Shown: positions 104-12,816 of the stretch, piece by piece
How the letters are laid out: every line of letters starts with the position of its first letter
Numbering within the stretch: the first letter of the stretch is position 1
From: Syntrophomonadaceae bacterium
GTDB lineage: Bacteria; Bacillota; Syntrophomonadia; Syntrophomonadales; Syntrophomonadaceae
Length of the DNA stretch: 34,116 nucleotides
Assembly (NCBI GenBank): GCA_012729495.1
Contig: JAAYCZ010000310.1
Coordinates: forward strand, 1-34,116
Reading direction: 5' to 3'
The notes under the pieces: generated by a model
Told to the model about the DNA's origin: nothing
What the model saw: only the letters and a program-made list of their open reading frames with translations
Database searches by the model: none
Made by a program: the position numbers and the translations under genes

Positions 104-1279
104 ATGAACATTTTAAATATAGGAACCTATCCGCCTAAACAGTGCGGAATCGCAACATTTTCAGCTGATTTATGCAGAAGTATTACCGAACATGGACATG
201 ATATAAAAATAATCGCCATTTCCGACAATAGCTGCAGTTATCATTACAGCAATCAGGTTATCTTTAATATCCGGCAAAACCAGCGCCAGGATTATATGAA
301 AGCGGCCGCCTTCATAAATGCAGCCACATCAGTGGACTTGGTTATTTTGCAGCATGAATACGGAATTTTTGGAGGTCAGGACGGAGAATACGTTTTAAAT
401 CTGGTTAAATTATTACACAAGCCCTATGTTTTGATAACTCATACGGTTCTTCCCCGTCCTTCCAAAAAGCAAAAACAAATATTGAATGATGTCTGCCACC
501 GGGCGGCGGGCATTGTCTGCATGACGGAACGTTCCCGGGATCTGTTGATCAATCTTTATGAAGCCCCGGCTGAAACCGTTAAAGTAATTGCCCACGGGGT
601 TCCTGATTTTATTAAAAAACCACAAGATGAGCTCAAGCAAGAACATGGTCTGGAAAATCGCCAACTGATAAGTACCTTTGGTTTGATTGGGCCGGGCAAA
701 GGTCTTGATGCAGGCATAAAGGCAGTGGCTGAACTGGTGGCTGAATACCCGCATATTGTTTACCTGATTCTGGGGCAAACCCATCCCATGCTGCTGCGCA
801 AGGAAGGCGAGAAATACCGGCAGACGCTGGTTGATCTGGTAGCCAGACTTGATCTCCAGCAAAACGTGGTTTTCATCAACAAATTCCTGACTGATCTTGA
901 ACTGGGTGATTACCTGTATATGACTGATATTTATCTGAGTCCTTATCCGAATCTGGATCAGGCGGTAAGCGGAACGATGGCTTTTGCGGTAGGCTGCGGA
1001 AGAGCCATTGTATCAACTGGCTATGCCTATGCCAATGAAGTTTTAAGAGCAGGACGTGGTTTGCTTGTCCCCAGTTCCGACCCGCATCTGCTGGCGCAGG
1101 GTATGCGGCAGATTTTGGACAGCTATGAATTACGGGAAAGCTTGCAGGACAATGCCTGGCAACTGGGCAGAACTTGGACCTGGTTCAATGTAGGTCGGGA
1201 ATACATTAATTTCTTCAGGCAAATCCTGAGCCTTAATCGAATTAGTGAGGAAAGGGTTCTGAATTATGCCAAACTATAA
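104..1279 (+). CDS. Glycosyltransferase family 4 (GT-B fold)
   Basis: 391 aa; N-terminal 'IGTYPPKQCGIATFSADL', mid 'STFGLIGPGKGLDAGIKAV', C-terminal 'SGTMAFAVGCGRAIVSTGYAYANEVL', typical of GT4; RBS aaaaggagaataaat before ATG. Confidence 0.88.
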   Translation: MNILNIGTYPPKQCGIATFSADLCRSITEHGHDIKIIAISDNSCSYHYSNQVIFNIRQNQRQDYMKAAAFINAATSVDLVILQHEYGIFGGQDGEYVLNLVKLLHKPYVLITHTVLPRPSKKQKQILNDVCHRAAGIVCMTERSRDLLINLYEAPAETVKVIAHGVPDFIKKPQDELKQEHGLENRQLISTFGLIGPGKGLDAGIKAVAELVAEYPHIVYLILGQTHPMLLRKEGEKYRQTLVDLVARLDLQQNVVFINKFLTDLELGDYLYMTDIYLSPYPNLDQAVSGTMAFAVGCGRAIVSTGYAYANEVLRAGRGLLVPSSDPHLLAQGMRQILDSYELRESLQDNAWQLGRTWTWFNVGREYINFFRQILSLNRISEERVLNYAKL

Positions 1280-2291
1280 ACACTTTCTGAATATGACCGA
1301 TGAAACCGGTATTTTGCAGTTTTCGAAATATCATCATCCTGATCAGGACAGCGGTTATACGCTGGATGACAATGCCCGGGCCCTGATGGTAGCTTTATCA
1401 ATGGGCGATGAAGGCTATCCTTTGGCGCTCGTTTTTACCCGTTATCTGCGCCGCAGCTGGCAGGAAAATGGCCAATGGTGCAACCTGCTGCTGCATGGTC
1501 AATATTATAATCATTTTGACTCCGAAGACAGCTTCGGGAGAGCTTTTTGGGCCTGCAGCACCGGCAGTTGCTCTGATTGGCCGATCATCGCCCAAAGCTG
1601 CACGGAAATGCTGGAACGGGCAGTGACCAGGCTGCCTTCTTTTCATTCGGCGCGTGGTATAGCCTATTGTTTGATTGGATTATGTAAAGGCAGGTTTCCA
1701 TTTTTAACTGCCAAATATCATAACAACCTGGTTCATCTGTTATCAGAACGTTTACTTTCGTTTTACAGCAGCCAGCAAAGTCCCGATTGGAATTGGTTTG
1801 AGGATAAAATGACTTACTGCAATGGGGTCTTGCCGCAATCACTTTTTGCGGCATATGCATATAACGGCAACCGAAAATGCCTGCAAACAGCGCGGGAATC
1901 ACTTCGCTTTCTAAGCAATCATTTATTTGCCCGAGGCTATTTAAATATTGTCGGCAATGAAGGCTGGTATATAAGGGGAGGAAAATTGCCTTTATGGGAT
2001 CAGCAGCCGGTGGATGCAGCCTCGGTTATTTTTGCCTGTCATGAGGCATATCAGGTTACGGGTTTAAATGAATACAAGCTGCTGATGAAATTAGCCTATA
2101 ATTGGTACCGCGGGTTTAATATCAACGGTCTGCCGCTTTATGATATTGAAAGCGGCGGTTGCTTTGATGGGCTGATCCGAGAAGGGGTAAATCTAAATCA
2201 AGGTGCGGAGGCTGTACTTTCTCTATTACTAAGCGATTTGCTGCTGGCCGGTTATTATGCAGGCAATCTGCCTCAGGCTAAATCGGTATAA
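1266..2291 (+). CDS. Glycosyltransferase-associated protein, probably an (alpha/alpha)-barrel glycosidase/epimerase-like fold ('YTLDDNARAL' family)
   Basis: 341 aa; overlaps the GT4 gene by 14 nt; 'DSGYTLDDNARALMVAL' and repeated helical/aromatic pattern. Confidence 0.7.
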   Translation: MPNYKHFLNMTDETGILQFSKYHHPDQDSGYTLDDNARALMVALSMGDEGYPLALVFTRYLRRSWQENGQWCNLLLHGQYYNHFDSEDSFGRAFWACSTGSCSDWPIIAQSCTEMLERAVTRLPSFHSARGIAYCLIGLCKGRFPFLTAKYHNNLVHLLSERLLSFYSSQQSPDWNWFEDKMTYCNGVLPQSLFAAYAYNGNRKCLQTARESLRFLSNHLFARGYLNIVGNEGWYIRGGKLPLWDQQPVDAASVIFACHEAYQVTGLNEYKLLMKLAYNWYRGFNINGLPLYDIESGGCFDGLIREGVNLNQGAEAVLSLLLSDLLLAGYYAGNLPQAKSV

Positions 2292-4521: not shown

Positions 4522-7500
4522 TCAGACGCTCCTGAATTTTTCCGGAATTAATTCGGCTAAAGTAGCTTTGGCCATACCGATACTGGTGTCGGCTGCTCCG
4601 TAGTAGACCAAAATTTCATCATCATCTTCCAGGATCTCTTTATCTGTACTGGCCACTGCACCACAGGTGAAAACCACATTGGGTACCCAGGCCCCGGATA
4701 AACCCAGTTCATAATCCTCAATCGGCTCCAGAACCGGATTAGGAGAACGATAAATTACCTTTTGCGGGTTTTTCAGATCGACCAATATGACCCCCAGGCG
4801 ATAGACGTAATTGTAATCCACCCCATGGTAGATTAAAAGCCAGCCATAACGGGTCTTGATAGGTTGTGCGCCGGCCCCGATCTTTAATGAATCCCACATC
4901 CGACCTGGACGAGGGCCGATGATGATAGCGTGTTTTTCACGGCAGGGGAAGCTTAGCTCCTGCATATAGGTGATCCACATACTCGGTTCGATCCGGTGGT
5001 AAAGAATATATTTGCCATTGATTCGATCCGGAAACAGGATGGCGTCTTTGTCCCAGATATTTTTAAATGCCAGCCCCTCCCTCTGCCACTTTTCAAAGCG
5101 CCTGGCCAGAAAATCCTCAACTCCGATGGACGCTGCGGCAATTTGAGCAATATTACCGTCATAGGCCGTGTATAGCATCCAGATGCGTTTTTCAATAACA
5201 ATGAGGCGGGGATCTTCACAACCCATTTTTTCTTCCGGCATGGCTGGTGAAAAGATCGGCCTGTCAAGCCTCTCCAGCACTTCATAGCCATCGGTAACAG
5301 CCAGACCAATATGGGAAACGTCATCATTGCCAACCGCCCGATAAAACAAGTAGACTTTATCCTTGATCCGCAGAGCGCCAGGATTGAGGACGTATTTGCA
5401 CTCCCAATGATGCTCAGCAATTGGTTCCAGCAGAGGATTGCCCTGATATCGTTTCAGATTTTTACTCGGCTCATTGGTGGTTTCCTGCACCACCACGGTT
5501 ACGTCTTTGGGCCGGTGGGGCAAGAGTGCATCCAGCAGACTCTGACCATTCCTGCCTGCCTGGATTGAGCGGTACACGGTCTGCATAATTTCTTGTTTAT
5601 CATATCCCAGCTCTTCATATAAAGCTTCCAGGAACTCATGATTAAACCAGCGGCTTTCAATGCTGGTGGAAATCGGGGTGGGTATTTTCAAGCCGCCTTT
5701 AAAGCTGTAGCTGGCCCAGCTCCAGACCGTACAGCTTAAAAACGTACCGTCTTCCAGCACCTGGCTCAAACCGTAACCGTCCGCCATTAAATGGAATATA
5801 CGGGCCTCGTCTCTTTTCCCCTCACCAGCCAGGATCTCTGCCATGCTCCTGATCTTGCCAACCAATTCCCGTTGCACATTGTTTTCAAACATCTTCTGAG
5901 CTGAAAAGTCATCTCCCTTTTCCATTCTCATCAAGGCGTTGCGGGCTTTATCACCGATATTTTTTCTTTCCTTCACATTTTGCCTGAAGAGGCGGGAGTA
6001 TTGTTCAGCCAGGCAAATTCGACGGATAATAGATGTGAAATATCTCAGTTTAGGATATTTGCCACCCTTTTGCTGCTCCAGGGCTTTAATGGTAACCCGG
6101 GCTGTGATTCGATTCAGGTTGGATACTTTATTGTGTGACCAGGCTCCGATGGGCAGATCCGAATTAATGATCAGCGGCTTCAGTTCCACCCATTCAAAGC
6201 TTTCCGGTTTAAGTTGATCCGTCATCCAGATCAGATCCCGGTCATTGTAGCTCCAGCTTTCCACCAGATTGGCGTAGGTGACTGCATCGCGCGGATCCAT
6301 ATTGGCAATTAAATCAGCGGGACGGTAATACCCAAGCGGGATCATCAAGTTGACCGGCGGAAAACGGATCAGCATTTCCCGCAGCAAATCGTGGTTTATA
6401 CTAAAGATTTGCTGGTGGGGCACCACTGCAAAAAGTCGGTTAACAAAAGTATCAAGTCCCGCTTCTTCCTGCAGGTTACCCGGTAGCAGTCCGTCGATGG
6501 TTTGTTCTGCCTGTTGGATAAAGGCCTCAACCGCCCGTATGATCTCTTCCGCTTCTGCTTTGGGGTTAAGCCCTAATCCATCGGTAATAAAACGGGTGAA
6601 ACGGTCTTCATATCTTCGGCGCAGATGTTTGAACAAATCGTCGGTCTGCACAATACGCTGATCCTTGCCGCTGATTTTTTTCGGCACAACAATAGGCCGG
6701 TTGGGAATATACTCCATATATCCGAGCGGCACCAGCGGCGGTTTGGCCTGTTCACTGCGGGCTGCCCATTGTCTGCTCAAGGCCGGCTTTTGCCGCCAAA
6801 ACTCTTCGGTGATCCGCTGGTGAATGCTTTCCATTTTCTGGATCATCATTTCATTGCTATGGCTTAACTCCTTGATTTGCTCATAAAATTCCTGCATCTC
6901 CAGGGCATGACTGGTGATCTTGCCATTATATAAAGCCATCAAGGCCGTTAGGATTTCCGGCTGCTGTTTTTCTTCGCCAAAGGCATATTGCAGTAAAAAG
7001 GAATAAATGCTGTTTACCCAGAATTCATCCTTGAAATTTCCATTTTGCGTTTCCATCATTTTTACAAGCTCCTGCAGGGCATTCACGGGCAAAAACTGCT
7101 CCATTACCTGTATGGATTGATCAAAATAACCTTTAAATTCCTGCCGCAGATCTTCCAGTGAATATTCGGCCATTTCTGCCTGTTCCACCTTGCTGCGGGC
7201 CAGGATATCAGCTACTTTAATTATTAATCGATCCCGCAGCCAGACAGCACTGTCCCGACGCAAACTTTCAAAGATGGTATGGCTCATTTCATAAAAAACC
7301 TGGTTCCGGTAAGCAAGTTGATGCGATTTTACCATTCCTCCCATACTGACTTCACAGATATCTTTGTTCCAGCATAAAGTACGGGTGATCAACCAGAAGT
7401 CAATGCCTGCACCGGCGATAAAATCGGTCCAAAATTTTGCTTCGCTGGCCAGTTCCTCTACCAAGTCATGGGCAATAGCATAAATCCCGCCCAGCGGATC

Positions 7501-8046
7501 ACTTAGCCGGCTGCCATAAAATGACTCCAATATAGGAGCTGCCAGCATATAAGCAATACTATCTATCCCGCAATGCTGACGCAGGCTGCCTAAAACCATG
7601 TCATACGATCCCTGAATCGGGGTCAGCAGACTTTCCAGCCAGTTGGCATCAATGCCGGGACCTTCAGATGTCCGCATGTTGGCATTAAAAATGATCAGAT
7701 CGGCTTCCATTTTTTTGGCTGTCTCAATAAGAACCCGAATACTCATCCCTCGACCGCTGCCTTCCGGGGGTAAAAGGAATGCCAGATGGGGATGATGCAG
7801 GGATAATTTTTGGATCAATTCCAGGGTGGCTGAAGCACTGGCATCACCGACACATACAATAAGCTGCCGGCGGCCGATCCATTTTTGCAGGACTTCATCA
7901 ACCGATTGAAGCACCTTAGGCAAATCTTGACTGTCATTATTAAAAGGGATGCCAATCACCAGATCATAATCAGTATAATTATCCATTTGCGGCAAAATCT
8001 TTTTCATTTCTTCATCAAAGATACTTTCGCGATTGCTCTGGTTCAA
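4522..8046 (-). CDS. Multidomain protein: N-terminal GT81/GT2-like glycosyltransferase, unassigned middle region, C-terminal GH130 (glycoside phosphorylase) domain
   Basis: 1174 aa, TTG start with AAGGGGG RBS. N-terminal 'DYDLVIGIPFNND...GRGMSIRVLIETAKKMEADLIIF...SDPLGGIYAIAHDLVEEL' matches the GpgS/GT81 pattern; C-terminal 'NPLLEPIAEHHWECKYVLNPGALRIKDKVYLFYRAVG...KMGCEDPRLIVI...GAGAQPIKTRYGWLLIYHGVD' is GH130. Confidence 0.85.
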   Translation of the reverse strand: MNQSNRESIFDEEMKKILPQMDNYTDYDLVIGIPFNNDSQDLPKVLQSVDEVLQKWIGRRQLIVCVGDASASATLELIQKLSLHHPHLAFLLPPEGSGRGMSIRVLIETAKKMEADLIIFNANMRTSEGPGIDANWLESLLTPIQGSYDMVLGSLRQHCGIDSIAYMLAAPILESFYGSRLSDPLGGIYAIAHDLVEELASEAKFWTDFIAGAGIDFWLITRTLCWNKDICEVSMGGMVKSHQLAYRNQVFYEMSHTIFESLRRDSAVWLRDRLIIKVADILARSKVEQAEMAEYSLEDLRQEFKGYFDQSIQVMEQFLPVNALQELVKMMETQNGNFKDEFWVNSIYSFLLQYAFGEEKQQPEILTALMALYNGKITSHALEMQEFYEQIKELSHSNEMMIQKMESIHQRITEEFWRQKPALSRQWAARSEQAKPPLVPLGYMEYIPNRPIVVPKKISGKDQRIVQTDDLFKHLRRRYEDRFTRFITDGLGLNPKAEAEEIIRAVEAFIQQAEQTIDGLLPGNLQEEAGLDTFVNRLFAVVPHQQIFSINHDLLREMLIRFPPVNLMIPLGYYRPADLIANMDPRDAVTYANLVESWSYNDRDLIWMTDQLKPESFEWVELKPLIINSDLPIGAWSHNKVSNLNRITARVTIKALEQQKGGKYPKLRYFTSIIRRICLAEQYSRLFRQNVKERKNIGDKARNALMRMEKGDDFSAQKMFENNVQRELVGKIRSMAEILAGEGKRDEARIFHLMADGYGLSQVLEDGTFLSCTVWSWASYSFKGGLKIPTPISTSIESRWFNHEFLEALYEELGYDKQEIMQTVYRSIQAGRNGQSLLDALLPHRPKDVTVVVQETTNEPSKNLKRYQGNPLLEPIAEHHWECKYVLNPGALRIKDKVYLFYRAVGNDDVSHIGLAVTDGYEVLERLDRPIFSPAMPEEKMGCEDPRLIVIEKRIWMLYTAYDGNIAQIAAASIGVEDFLARRFEKWQREGLAFKNIWDKDAILFPDRINGKYILYHRIEPSMWITYMQELSFPCREKHAIIIGPRPGRMWDSLKIGAGAQPIKTRYGWLLIYHGVDYNYVYRLGVILVDLKNPQKVIYRSPNPVLEPIEDYELGLSGAWVPNVVFTCGAVASTDKEILEDDDEILVYYGAADTSIGMAKATLAELIPEKFRSV

Positions 8047-8278
8047 CGTTTATAAACCCCCTTAAAAGCTAAATTGTCTCTACATAGTTATGCGCAAAAT
8101 CTTCCTAATATATTATGCAAAAGACGAATAAAGTGGCTGCCTTGAGTATGAGTCTCCTGATCTTCCTGTATACAGATGTTTGTTAAAACGCCTCTTGCAA
8201 TTTATGAAAATTTCAAACCAATACCCATTAAAGCACGTATGGTCTGGGCTATGGATTAAAAGGCGAGGAATTGATTTG

Positions 8279-11016: not shown

Positions 11017-12816
11017 CTAGATAAGAGTTTTCAACTCTTCCAGCAGACGGGCGAAATATTTCAAGGCATCATCCACCGGCTCCGGTGTAGTGAGATCCAC
11101 ACCTGCTTTCTGCAGCAACTGGATGGGATAATCAGAACCGCCCGATTTTAAAAATTCCAGGTAGCGCTGCACCGCTGGCTGGCCTTCCTGGCGGATAGCT
11201 TCCTTGATGGCGGTGGCGGCGGAAAAACCGGTGGCATACTTATACACATAAAAGGCGGAATAAAAGTGCGGGATACGGGCCCATTCGATATCGATTTCCT
11301 CATCCAAGACTACATCCGGACCATAATACAGTTTATTCAAATCCCGATAAATGGAACTCATTAATTCAGGGGTTAGCGCTTCTCCCTGTTCGGCCCGTTC
11401 ATGGATTATTTTTTCAAATTCAGCAAACATGGTCTGGCGGTAAACGGTCCCCCGAAATTGTTCGAGGTAGTGGTTGAGCAGGTATATTTTCTCTTGTTTA
11501 TCTTTGCTGTGTTCAAGCAGGTAGTCAATCAGCAGCGATTCATTTACGGTAGAGGCAACTTCCGCTACGAAAATGGAATATTGGGCATAAACATAAGGCT
11601 GGTTCCGGTTGGAATAATAAGAGTGCAGGGAATGACCCATTTCGTGAGCAAGAGTAAACAAATCATCCAGTTTATTATCATAATTCATCAATATATAAGG
11701 CTGCGTGTCATATGTCCCCCAGGAATAAGCACCGCTGGTCTTGCCCTCATTTTCGTAGACATCTATCCACCCTTCTTGCAATCCTTTCCTGACAATTTCA
11801 AGATATTCTTCCCCCAATGGCTGCAGCGCCTTGAGCATGGTTTGCTGAGCTTGTTCATAGGGAATATTTACTTTATAATCTTTGACCAGCGGGGTGTAAA
11901 TATCATACATATGCAATTCATCAACATCCAGCTGTTCTTTCCTTATTTTCATGTAGCGATACATTGGTTCCAAATTATTGTGCACAGCTTCGATCAACCG
12001 GTTATATACTTCCACCGCTATATTATCCCCATCCAGAGATGCGGCCAGCGCCGAAGGATATTTGCGGGCCCGGGCATAAAAAATATCTTTCTTTACACTT
12101 GAACCCAGGCCCGCTCCCAGCGTATTGATCAACTTCCGGTAGGAACTATAGAGTGCTGCAAATGCATCCTGGCGCACCTGGCGGTTCGAACTCTCCATAA
12201 AACTGCCATAGCGTCCTTTGGTCAGCTCAACTTCGTTGCCTTCCTCATCTTTGATTATGGGGAATTTAATATCCGCGTTGTTGAGCATGGTAAAAATATT
12301 GGAGGAAGCCATGGATAGATCCGCCGCCATAGCCAGCAAACGTTCCTCCGGGGCCGAAAGAATATGCTCCTTCTGACGAAGGATCTCCTCCAGGGCATGC
12401 CGGTAAACAGCTAAATCTTTATTCTGCTGCATATATTTATTTAGATCTGCCTCGGGAATCGTAAGTATCTCCGGCACTATAAAAGCTGATGCGCTGCTGG
12501 CCTCAACGCTTAATCTTTCCGCCCGGTCAAAAAGCGCCTGATAAACATGATTGGCATTATTTTCATCCCGGCGCATGCGGGCATAAACATATAATTTTTC
12601 CGCGATCCTTCCCATATCATCAGAAATCTGCAAAACCTTCAGCAGAGCTTCAGCTGATTCTGCCAGACTGCCCTGCAGGGCAGCAATTTTTTCAATCAGT
12701 TGCCCTAATCTTTTAAAATCATCTTCCCAAAGGGTTTCAAGGGTATAAATTTTTTCCAAATCCCATTTAAATTTATCATCAAGCTCTTCTCTTTTTTTCG
12801 TATGCTGCTCAGCCAA
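11017..12816 (-). CDS. pepF: Oligoendopeptidase F (M3 metallopeptidase)
   Basis: 599 aa; HExxH zinc motif 'LAHEMGHSLHSYYS', 'RQTMFAEFEKIIHE', 'HFYSAFYVYKYATGFSAA'. Confidence 0.95.
   Translation of the reverse strand: MAEQHTKKREELDDKFKWDLEKIYTLETLWEDDFKRLGQLIEKIAALQGSLAESAEALLKVLQISDDMGRIAEKLYVYARMRRDENNANHVYQALFDRAERLSVEASSASAFIVPEILTIPEADLNKYMQQNKDLAVYRHALEEILRQKEHILSAPEERLLAMAADLSMASSNIFTMLNNADIKFPIIKDEEGNEVELTKGRYGSFMESSNRQVRQDAFAALYSSYRKLINTLGAGLGSSVKKDIFYARARKYPSALAASLDGDNIAVEVYNRLIEAVHNNLEPMYRYMKIRKEQLDVDELHMYDIYTPLVKDYKVNIPYEQAQQTMLKALQPLGEEYLEIVRKGLQEGWIDVYENEGKTSGAYSWGTYDTQPYILMNYDNKLDDLFTLAHEMGHSLHSYYSNRNQPYVYAQYSIFVAEVASTVNESLLIDYLLEHSKDKQEKIYLLNHYLEQFRGTVYRQTMFAEFEKIIHERAEQGEALTPELMSSIYRDLNKLYYGPDVVLDEEIDIEWARIPHFYSAFYVYKYATGFSAATAIKEAIRQEGQPAVQRYLEFLKSGGSDYPIQLLQKAGVDLTTPEPVDDALKYFARLLEELKTLI

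Follow-up and report, generated by a model that had tools for sequence, protein, structure and literature searches.

The locus considered here raises the question of what a single polypeptide that joins a glycosyltransferase-like domain to a glycoside phosphorylase does in the cell. The window (the whole stretch of DNA analysed, 34,116 nucleotides) contains one open frame of 1174 codons, in which a first-pass annotation had seen a GT81-type synthase linked to a GH130 phosphorylase, a pair that could act as a bidirectional enzyme making and recycling an intracellular mannoside or compatible solute. The frame is open on the minus strand only, a point left unstated in that annotation, and the plus strand there is rich in stops. 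The uninterrupted frame proved to be real: because full-length orthologues with 34-76% identity were found in dozens of genomes, a chance frame or an assembly join was rejected. No obvious N-terminal signal sequence was seen when the protein was judged by eye. In one locus (L023:1223-4824), the orthologue is broken near its N-terminus into two overlapping frames with a TAG, possibly by pseudogene formation or a sequencing error.

Of the 300 genomes sampled from the phylum, 38 carried the fusion; two copies were seen in some genomes. Syntrophomonas zehnderi OL-4, of the same genus as the window's genome, has a full-length orthologue with 76% identity. This fusion family is both old and widespread and is not peculiar to one genome, which answers the annotation's suggestion to look for the architecture elsewhere. 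The annotation had also called a GT-GH130 combination unfamiliar as a characterised system; the open literature that was searched contained no paper on it and no description of the three-domain architecture.

Table 1 Features of the fusion gene and its module partners in the window.
Feature	Position	Strand	Basis
Three-domain fusion protein, 1174 aa	4522..8046	-	TTG start at 8046; full-length orthologues
AAGGGGG, plausible ribosome-binding site, 10 nt before TTG	8063-8057 (8057..8063)	-	Sequence
GT81/GT78-like domain, residues 20-400, GT-A core and C-terminal helices, probably non-catalytic	6847..7989	-	Profile, Foldseek, alignment
GT81 DxD position, residues 121-123, here Asn-Ala-Asn	7678..7686	-	Alignment
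GT81 metal His position, residue 240, here Lys	7327..7329	-	Alignment
Middle domain, about residues 440-846, in this fusion only	5509..6729	-	Pfam, PDB-sequence, Foldseek and phylum-sample searches
GH130 five-bladed propeller domain, residues 864-1167	4546..5457	-	Pfam, NCBIfam, solved-protein matches, Foldseek, alignment
Catalytic Asp945 (GCEDPR)	5212..5214	-	Invariant in 44 fusions; (E/Y)DPR motif present
Lys1000, likely counterpart of BT3780 specificity Lys199	5047..5049	-	Invariant; alignment to Teth514 enzymes and spacing
Stretch with basic Arg1018, Lys1055, Lys1064 and His1074, common to solved phosphorylases	4825..4995	-	Alignment
GT4 glycosyltransferase, 391 aa, module partner	104..1279	+	Pfam, recurrent neighbour
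P341, (alpha/alpha)-barrel-like glycosidase-type protein, module partner	1266..2291	+	Resemblance to 7tem and 3k7x, recurrent neighbour

The assignment of the C-terminal domain is firm. As the annotation had reported, it is a GH130 domain with "YRAVG" and "GCEDPR" present, and Pfam PF04041 matched residues 886-1167 with 170 bits against a cut-off of 26 (7e-50). The nearest solved proteins by sequence were Teth514_1789 (1.6e-58) and Teth514_1788 (1.8e-54), the beta-1,2-mannobiose and beta-1,2-oligomannan phosphorylases of Thermoanaerobacter, both acting on beta-1,2-mannosides. The AlphaFold model of the fusion protein had a pLDDT of 83.6, and its GH130 part matched 9fj8 by Foldseek at 3e-23 with a TM of 0.87; both the sequence family and the five-bladed propeller fold of GH130 were thus found in this domain. 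The window's genome also holds a second, shorter GH130-like stretch (G000:C162:14925-15263, L003) with 47% identity across 113 residues, part of a 438-aa frame, and similar shorter stretches recur in family members.

Two residue patterns described for GH130 bear on its activity: in GH130 hydrolases the basic residues that bind phosphate are swapped for Glu, and beta-1,2 specificity is marked by a Lys (PMC4599007). Alignment of 44 fusion GH130 domains indicated that D945, R947, K1000, R1018, K1055, K1064, and H1074 were invariant in all 44. R1018, K1055, K1064, and H1074 are basic as in the sequence alignments with 7fip and 9fj8, and none is replaced by Glu. We therefore infer that the domain is active as a phosphorylase. 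K1000 is common to the fusions and the Teth514 enzymes, yet it is also found in the other GH130 clade, and its equivalence to Lys199 rests on spacing. NCBIfam NF052550, the beta-1,2-mannobiose phosphorylase equivalog, gave 250 bits, below its curated cut-off of 450. In the tree, the 44 domains formed one clade (support 0.86) beside the Teth514 type, which is consistent with a single origin of the fusion. Taken together, these findings suggest that the domain is probably a beta-mannoside phosphorylase, with the beta-1,2 linkage most favoured. The linkage could be a different one, since most of the stand-alone GH130s that adjoin GT4 and P341 genes (described below) in other lineages fall in a different clade, nearer to beta-1,4-acting enzymes.

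Next, the N-terminal domain was compared with GT81 and GT78 enzymes. The annotation's GT81-like assignment stood at the level of the family, whereas the window's own N-terminus alone gave no significant Pfam match. The NCBIfam GpgS model matched 11 of 40 orthologous N-termini (best 2e-4), a profile of these N-termini matched GT-A enzymes (GtrB sll0501, 2e-4 to 3e-4), and, bridging these faint direct sequence matches, among the stand-alone homologues of the domain (L054-L056) that of L056 matched solved GpgS at 4e-8. The fold check that the annotation had named was run by Foldseek on the AlphaFold model; it returned a GT fold, with mannosylglycerate synthase as the match (9e-11, TM 0.74). Hence, a GT-A fold and homology to GpgS hold at the family level, through the stand-alone relatives. 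The helical motif "...ALMALYNGKI..." quoted by the annotation likewise recurs in stand-alone GT81-like proteins ("ALSPLYNGRIAAFAREARHM"). Two of these proteins (L054:852-2090 and L056:5413-6696), with intact DSD and KVHD, lie near a LacI-family regulator, and in L056 a creatininase-like gene is also close by.

Although the fusions share the GT-A core and C-terminal helices with GpgS and the GT78 mannosylglycerate synthase, they differ in being joined to two further domains and in having lost catalytic positions. The stand-alone GT81-like proteins retain GKG, DSD, and KVHD. In the alignment of 45 fusion N-domains, by contrast, DxD was found in none, and the aligned metal His in one (L057). The domain is also the least conserved of the three, with pairwise identities of 0.40, 0.49, and 0.71 for the N-terminal, middle, and GH130 domains, respectively. 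These results suggest that the GT81-like half is probably non-catalytic, so that "synthase plus phosphorylase" was half right: the phosphorylase part agrees with the invariant GH130 residues, and the synthase part does not agree with the loss of DxD and His. An active GT81 synthase on the same chain would be in keeping with the fold and its C-terminal helices, with the use of GDP-Man by the best structural match, mannosylglycerate synthase, with the apparent formation of GDP-Man by the fusion locus, and with the Gly-Arg/Lys-Gly and Asp216 positions, which are largely retained. In view of the lost metal-binding residues, we nevertheless judge it improbable. A residual or metal-independent transferase activity is conceivable, because 26 of the 45 fusions retain the second Asp of DxD.

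Between these two domains lies a domain of approximately 400 residues, which the annotation overlooked, as it did the fact that the transferase has lost DxD and His. Sequence searches against Pfam families and solved proteins gave no match. When folded alone, the domain yielded a confident model (pLDDT 86.5), and Foldseek with this model gave no match (best E 0.36). It was present in 38 of the 300 sampled genomes, in every case as part of the long fusion frame or of a piece of it, and none was found on plasmids. The middle domain is lineage-specific, without a sequence or fold match.

Subsequently, the gene neighbourhood was examined across 38 fusion loci. A GT4 glycosyltransferase was found in 25, P341 in 24, phosphomannomutase (PMM) in 20, and mannose-1-phosphate guanylyltransferase (GMP) in 18; in two further loci, counted on top of these tallies, GT4 and P341 are one protein (L058 and L060). 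P341 is a 341-aa protein resembling 7tem and 3k7x, which are (alpha/alpha)-barrel proteins, and the GT4 had no relative among solved proteins at 1e-5. In several loci the genes form tight same-strand runs, GT4-P341-fusion or GMP-PMM-fusion, most of them spaced by about -20 to +12 nt. P341 occurred in 33 of 38 genomes with the fusion versus 33 of 262 without it (Fisher 2e-20, with genomes treated as independent and kinship ignored). Among genomes lacking the fusion, 12 retrieved loci (L114-L123, L127, and L128) have a separate GH130 next to GT4-P341. GMP and PMM are themselves fused (about 1040-1090 aa) at L116:9284-12541 and L128:3721-6831, beside GT4-P341 fusions and a separate GH130. At L083:11345-12709, a GT4 and the cupin domain of a mannose-6-phosphate isomerase form one protein near a fusion of the L083 type, and a GH5 mannanase/mannosidase-like gene (L083:12776-13999) lies next to it. 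Several fusion loci, L063, L067, and L093 among them, had no module gene within about 8 kb. In the window's genome, GT4 and P341 lie at the left end of the window, and contig C196 carries PMM together with GMP, PMM reaching the contig end, which would fit a break between contigs within the module. This gene context (GMP, PMM, GT4, and P341) lends support to the link with intracellular mannoside metabolism that the annotation had drawn.

Among the closest known systems is the GH130 cluster of Thermoanaerobacter, which holds GMP, GT4, and GH5 genes and was interpreted as salvaging beta-1,2-oligomannan taken up from outside (PMC4264767). The phosphorylases of strain X-514 are 36-40% identical to the fusion's GH130 domain, have the same catalytic Asp and basic residues, and form the sister clade; unlike the fusion, they are single-domain proteins of about 300 aa with neither a GT81-like nor a middle domain. 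In a corresponding salvage reading, the phosphorylase would degrade imported beta-1,2-mannooligosaccharides and the Man-1-P released would be converted to GDP-mannose, for which the GH130 type and the GMP, GT4, and GH5 neighbours speak. However, the Thermoanaerobacter cluster has an ABC transporter, whereas no family of sugar ABC transporters is found repeatedly around the 38 fusion loci, and the PMM and mannose-6-phosphate isomerase genes of the module point to de novo supply. An import-and-salvage locus was accordingly demoted and appears unlikely, and synthesis and remobilisation inside the cell are preferred because no sugar transporter recurs near the fusions. The ABC protein that does recur is, in seven loci, a neighbour of FtsX and PcsB.

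We therefore favour, as rather more probable than its opposite, a cytoplasmic beta-mannoside phosphorylase, most likely acting on beta-1,2 linkages, that belongs to a GDP-mannose-linked module making and remobilising an intracellular mannoside, with a degenerate N-domain. The activities, the product, and the roles of the N-terminal and middle domains are proposed here from the domain homology, residue patterns, conservation, and gene linkage observed. PMM and GMP would interconvert mannose-6-phosphate, mannose-1-phosphate, and GDP-mannose. The separate GT4 would transfer mannose from GDP-mannose, probably building an alpha-linked core or primer, and the P341 barrel protein may trim the GT4 product or transfer it; the transferase step is more likely to come from the adjoining GT4 than from the fusion's N-domain. 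GH130 would catalyse the reversible reaction of a beta-mannoside and phosphate to alpha-mannose-1-phosphate, thereby extending the beta-mannosyl part or, at normal phosphate levels, mobilising it. The degenerate GT81-like domain more likely binds an acceptor, product, or nucleotide, or holds a complex together.

A narrower form of the favoured reading would make the product a bacterial counterpart of mannogen, the beta-1,2-mannan of Leishmania. GT108 has the same fold and mechanism as GH130, and the Leishmania GT108 enzymes are mannosyltransferases and phosphorylases of dual activity acting on this polymer (PMC8950772). By analogy, the fusion may set a propeller of the GH130 type within a beta-mannan economy fed by GDP-mannose and, like GT108, use both GDP-Man and Man-1-P, which would fit a GDP-Man module with no other obvious beta-mannosyltransferase. 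On the other hand, the polymer and the use of GDP-Man are proposed by analogy, no GT108 structure was among the sequence matches listed for the fusion, and the GT108 enzymes are eukaryotic and have neither the GT81-like nor the middle domain. We consider such a beta-1,2-mannan reserve possible, though on the less probable side. In its fullest form, the proposal is that syntrophic and related Bacillota build a mannogen-like intracellular beta-mannan from GDP-mannose, with the retired GT81 domain and the new-fold middle domain serving as a primer or polymer platform for a GH130 synthase-phosphorylase; this we put forward only tentatively.

If the favoured reading of a GDP-mannose-linked mannoside module is true, a mannose storage or solute pathway would be widespread in anaerobes existing at the energetic limit, for which phosphorolysis means a saving of ATP. 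The fusion further adds a conserved domain without a known fold and offers a clear case of a transferase domain retained after loss of its catalytic residues. Through the conserved GMP-PMM-GT4-P341-GH130 module, the question of whether bacteria hold a beta-mannan reserve can be put to a direct test.

Two further gene associations were observed around the fusion. Its neighbours at L064:314-3038 and similar places, seven loci in all, include genes for FtsX, an ABC ATPase, and a PcsB-like M23 peptidase. In 12 of the 38 loci, an oligoendopeptidase F gene (11017-12816 in the window) is located a short way upstream of the fusion, which is probably plain synteny within the family.
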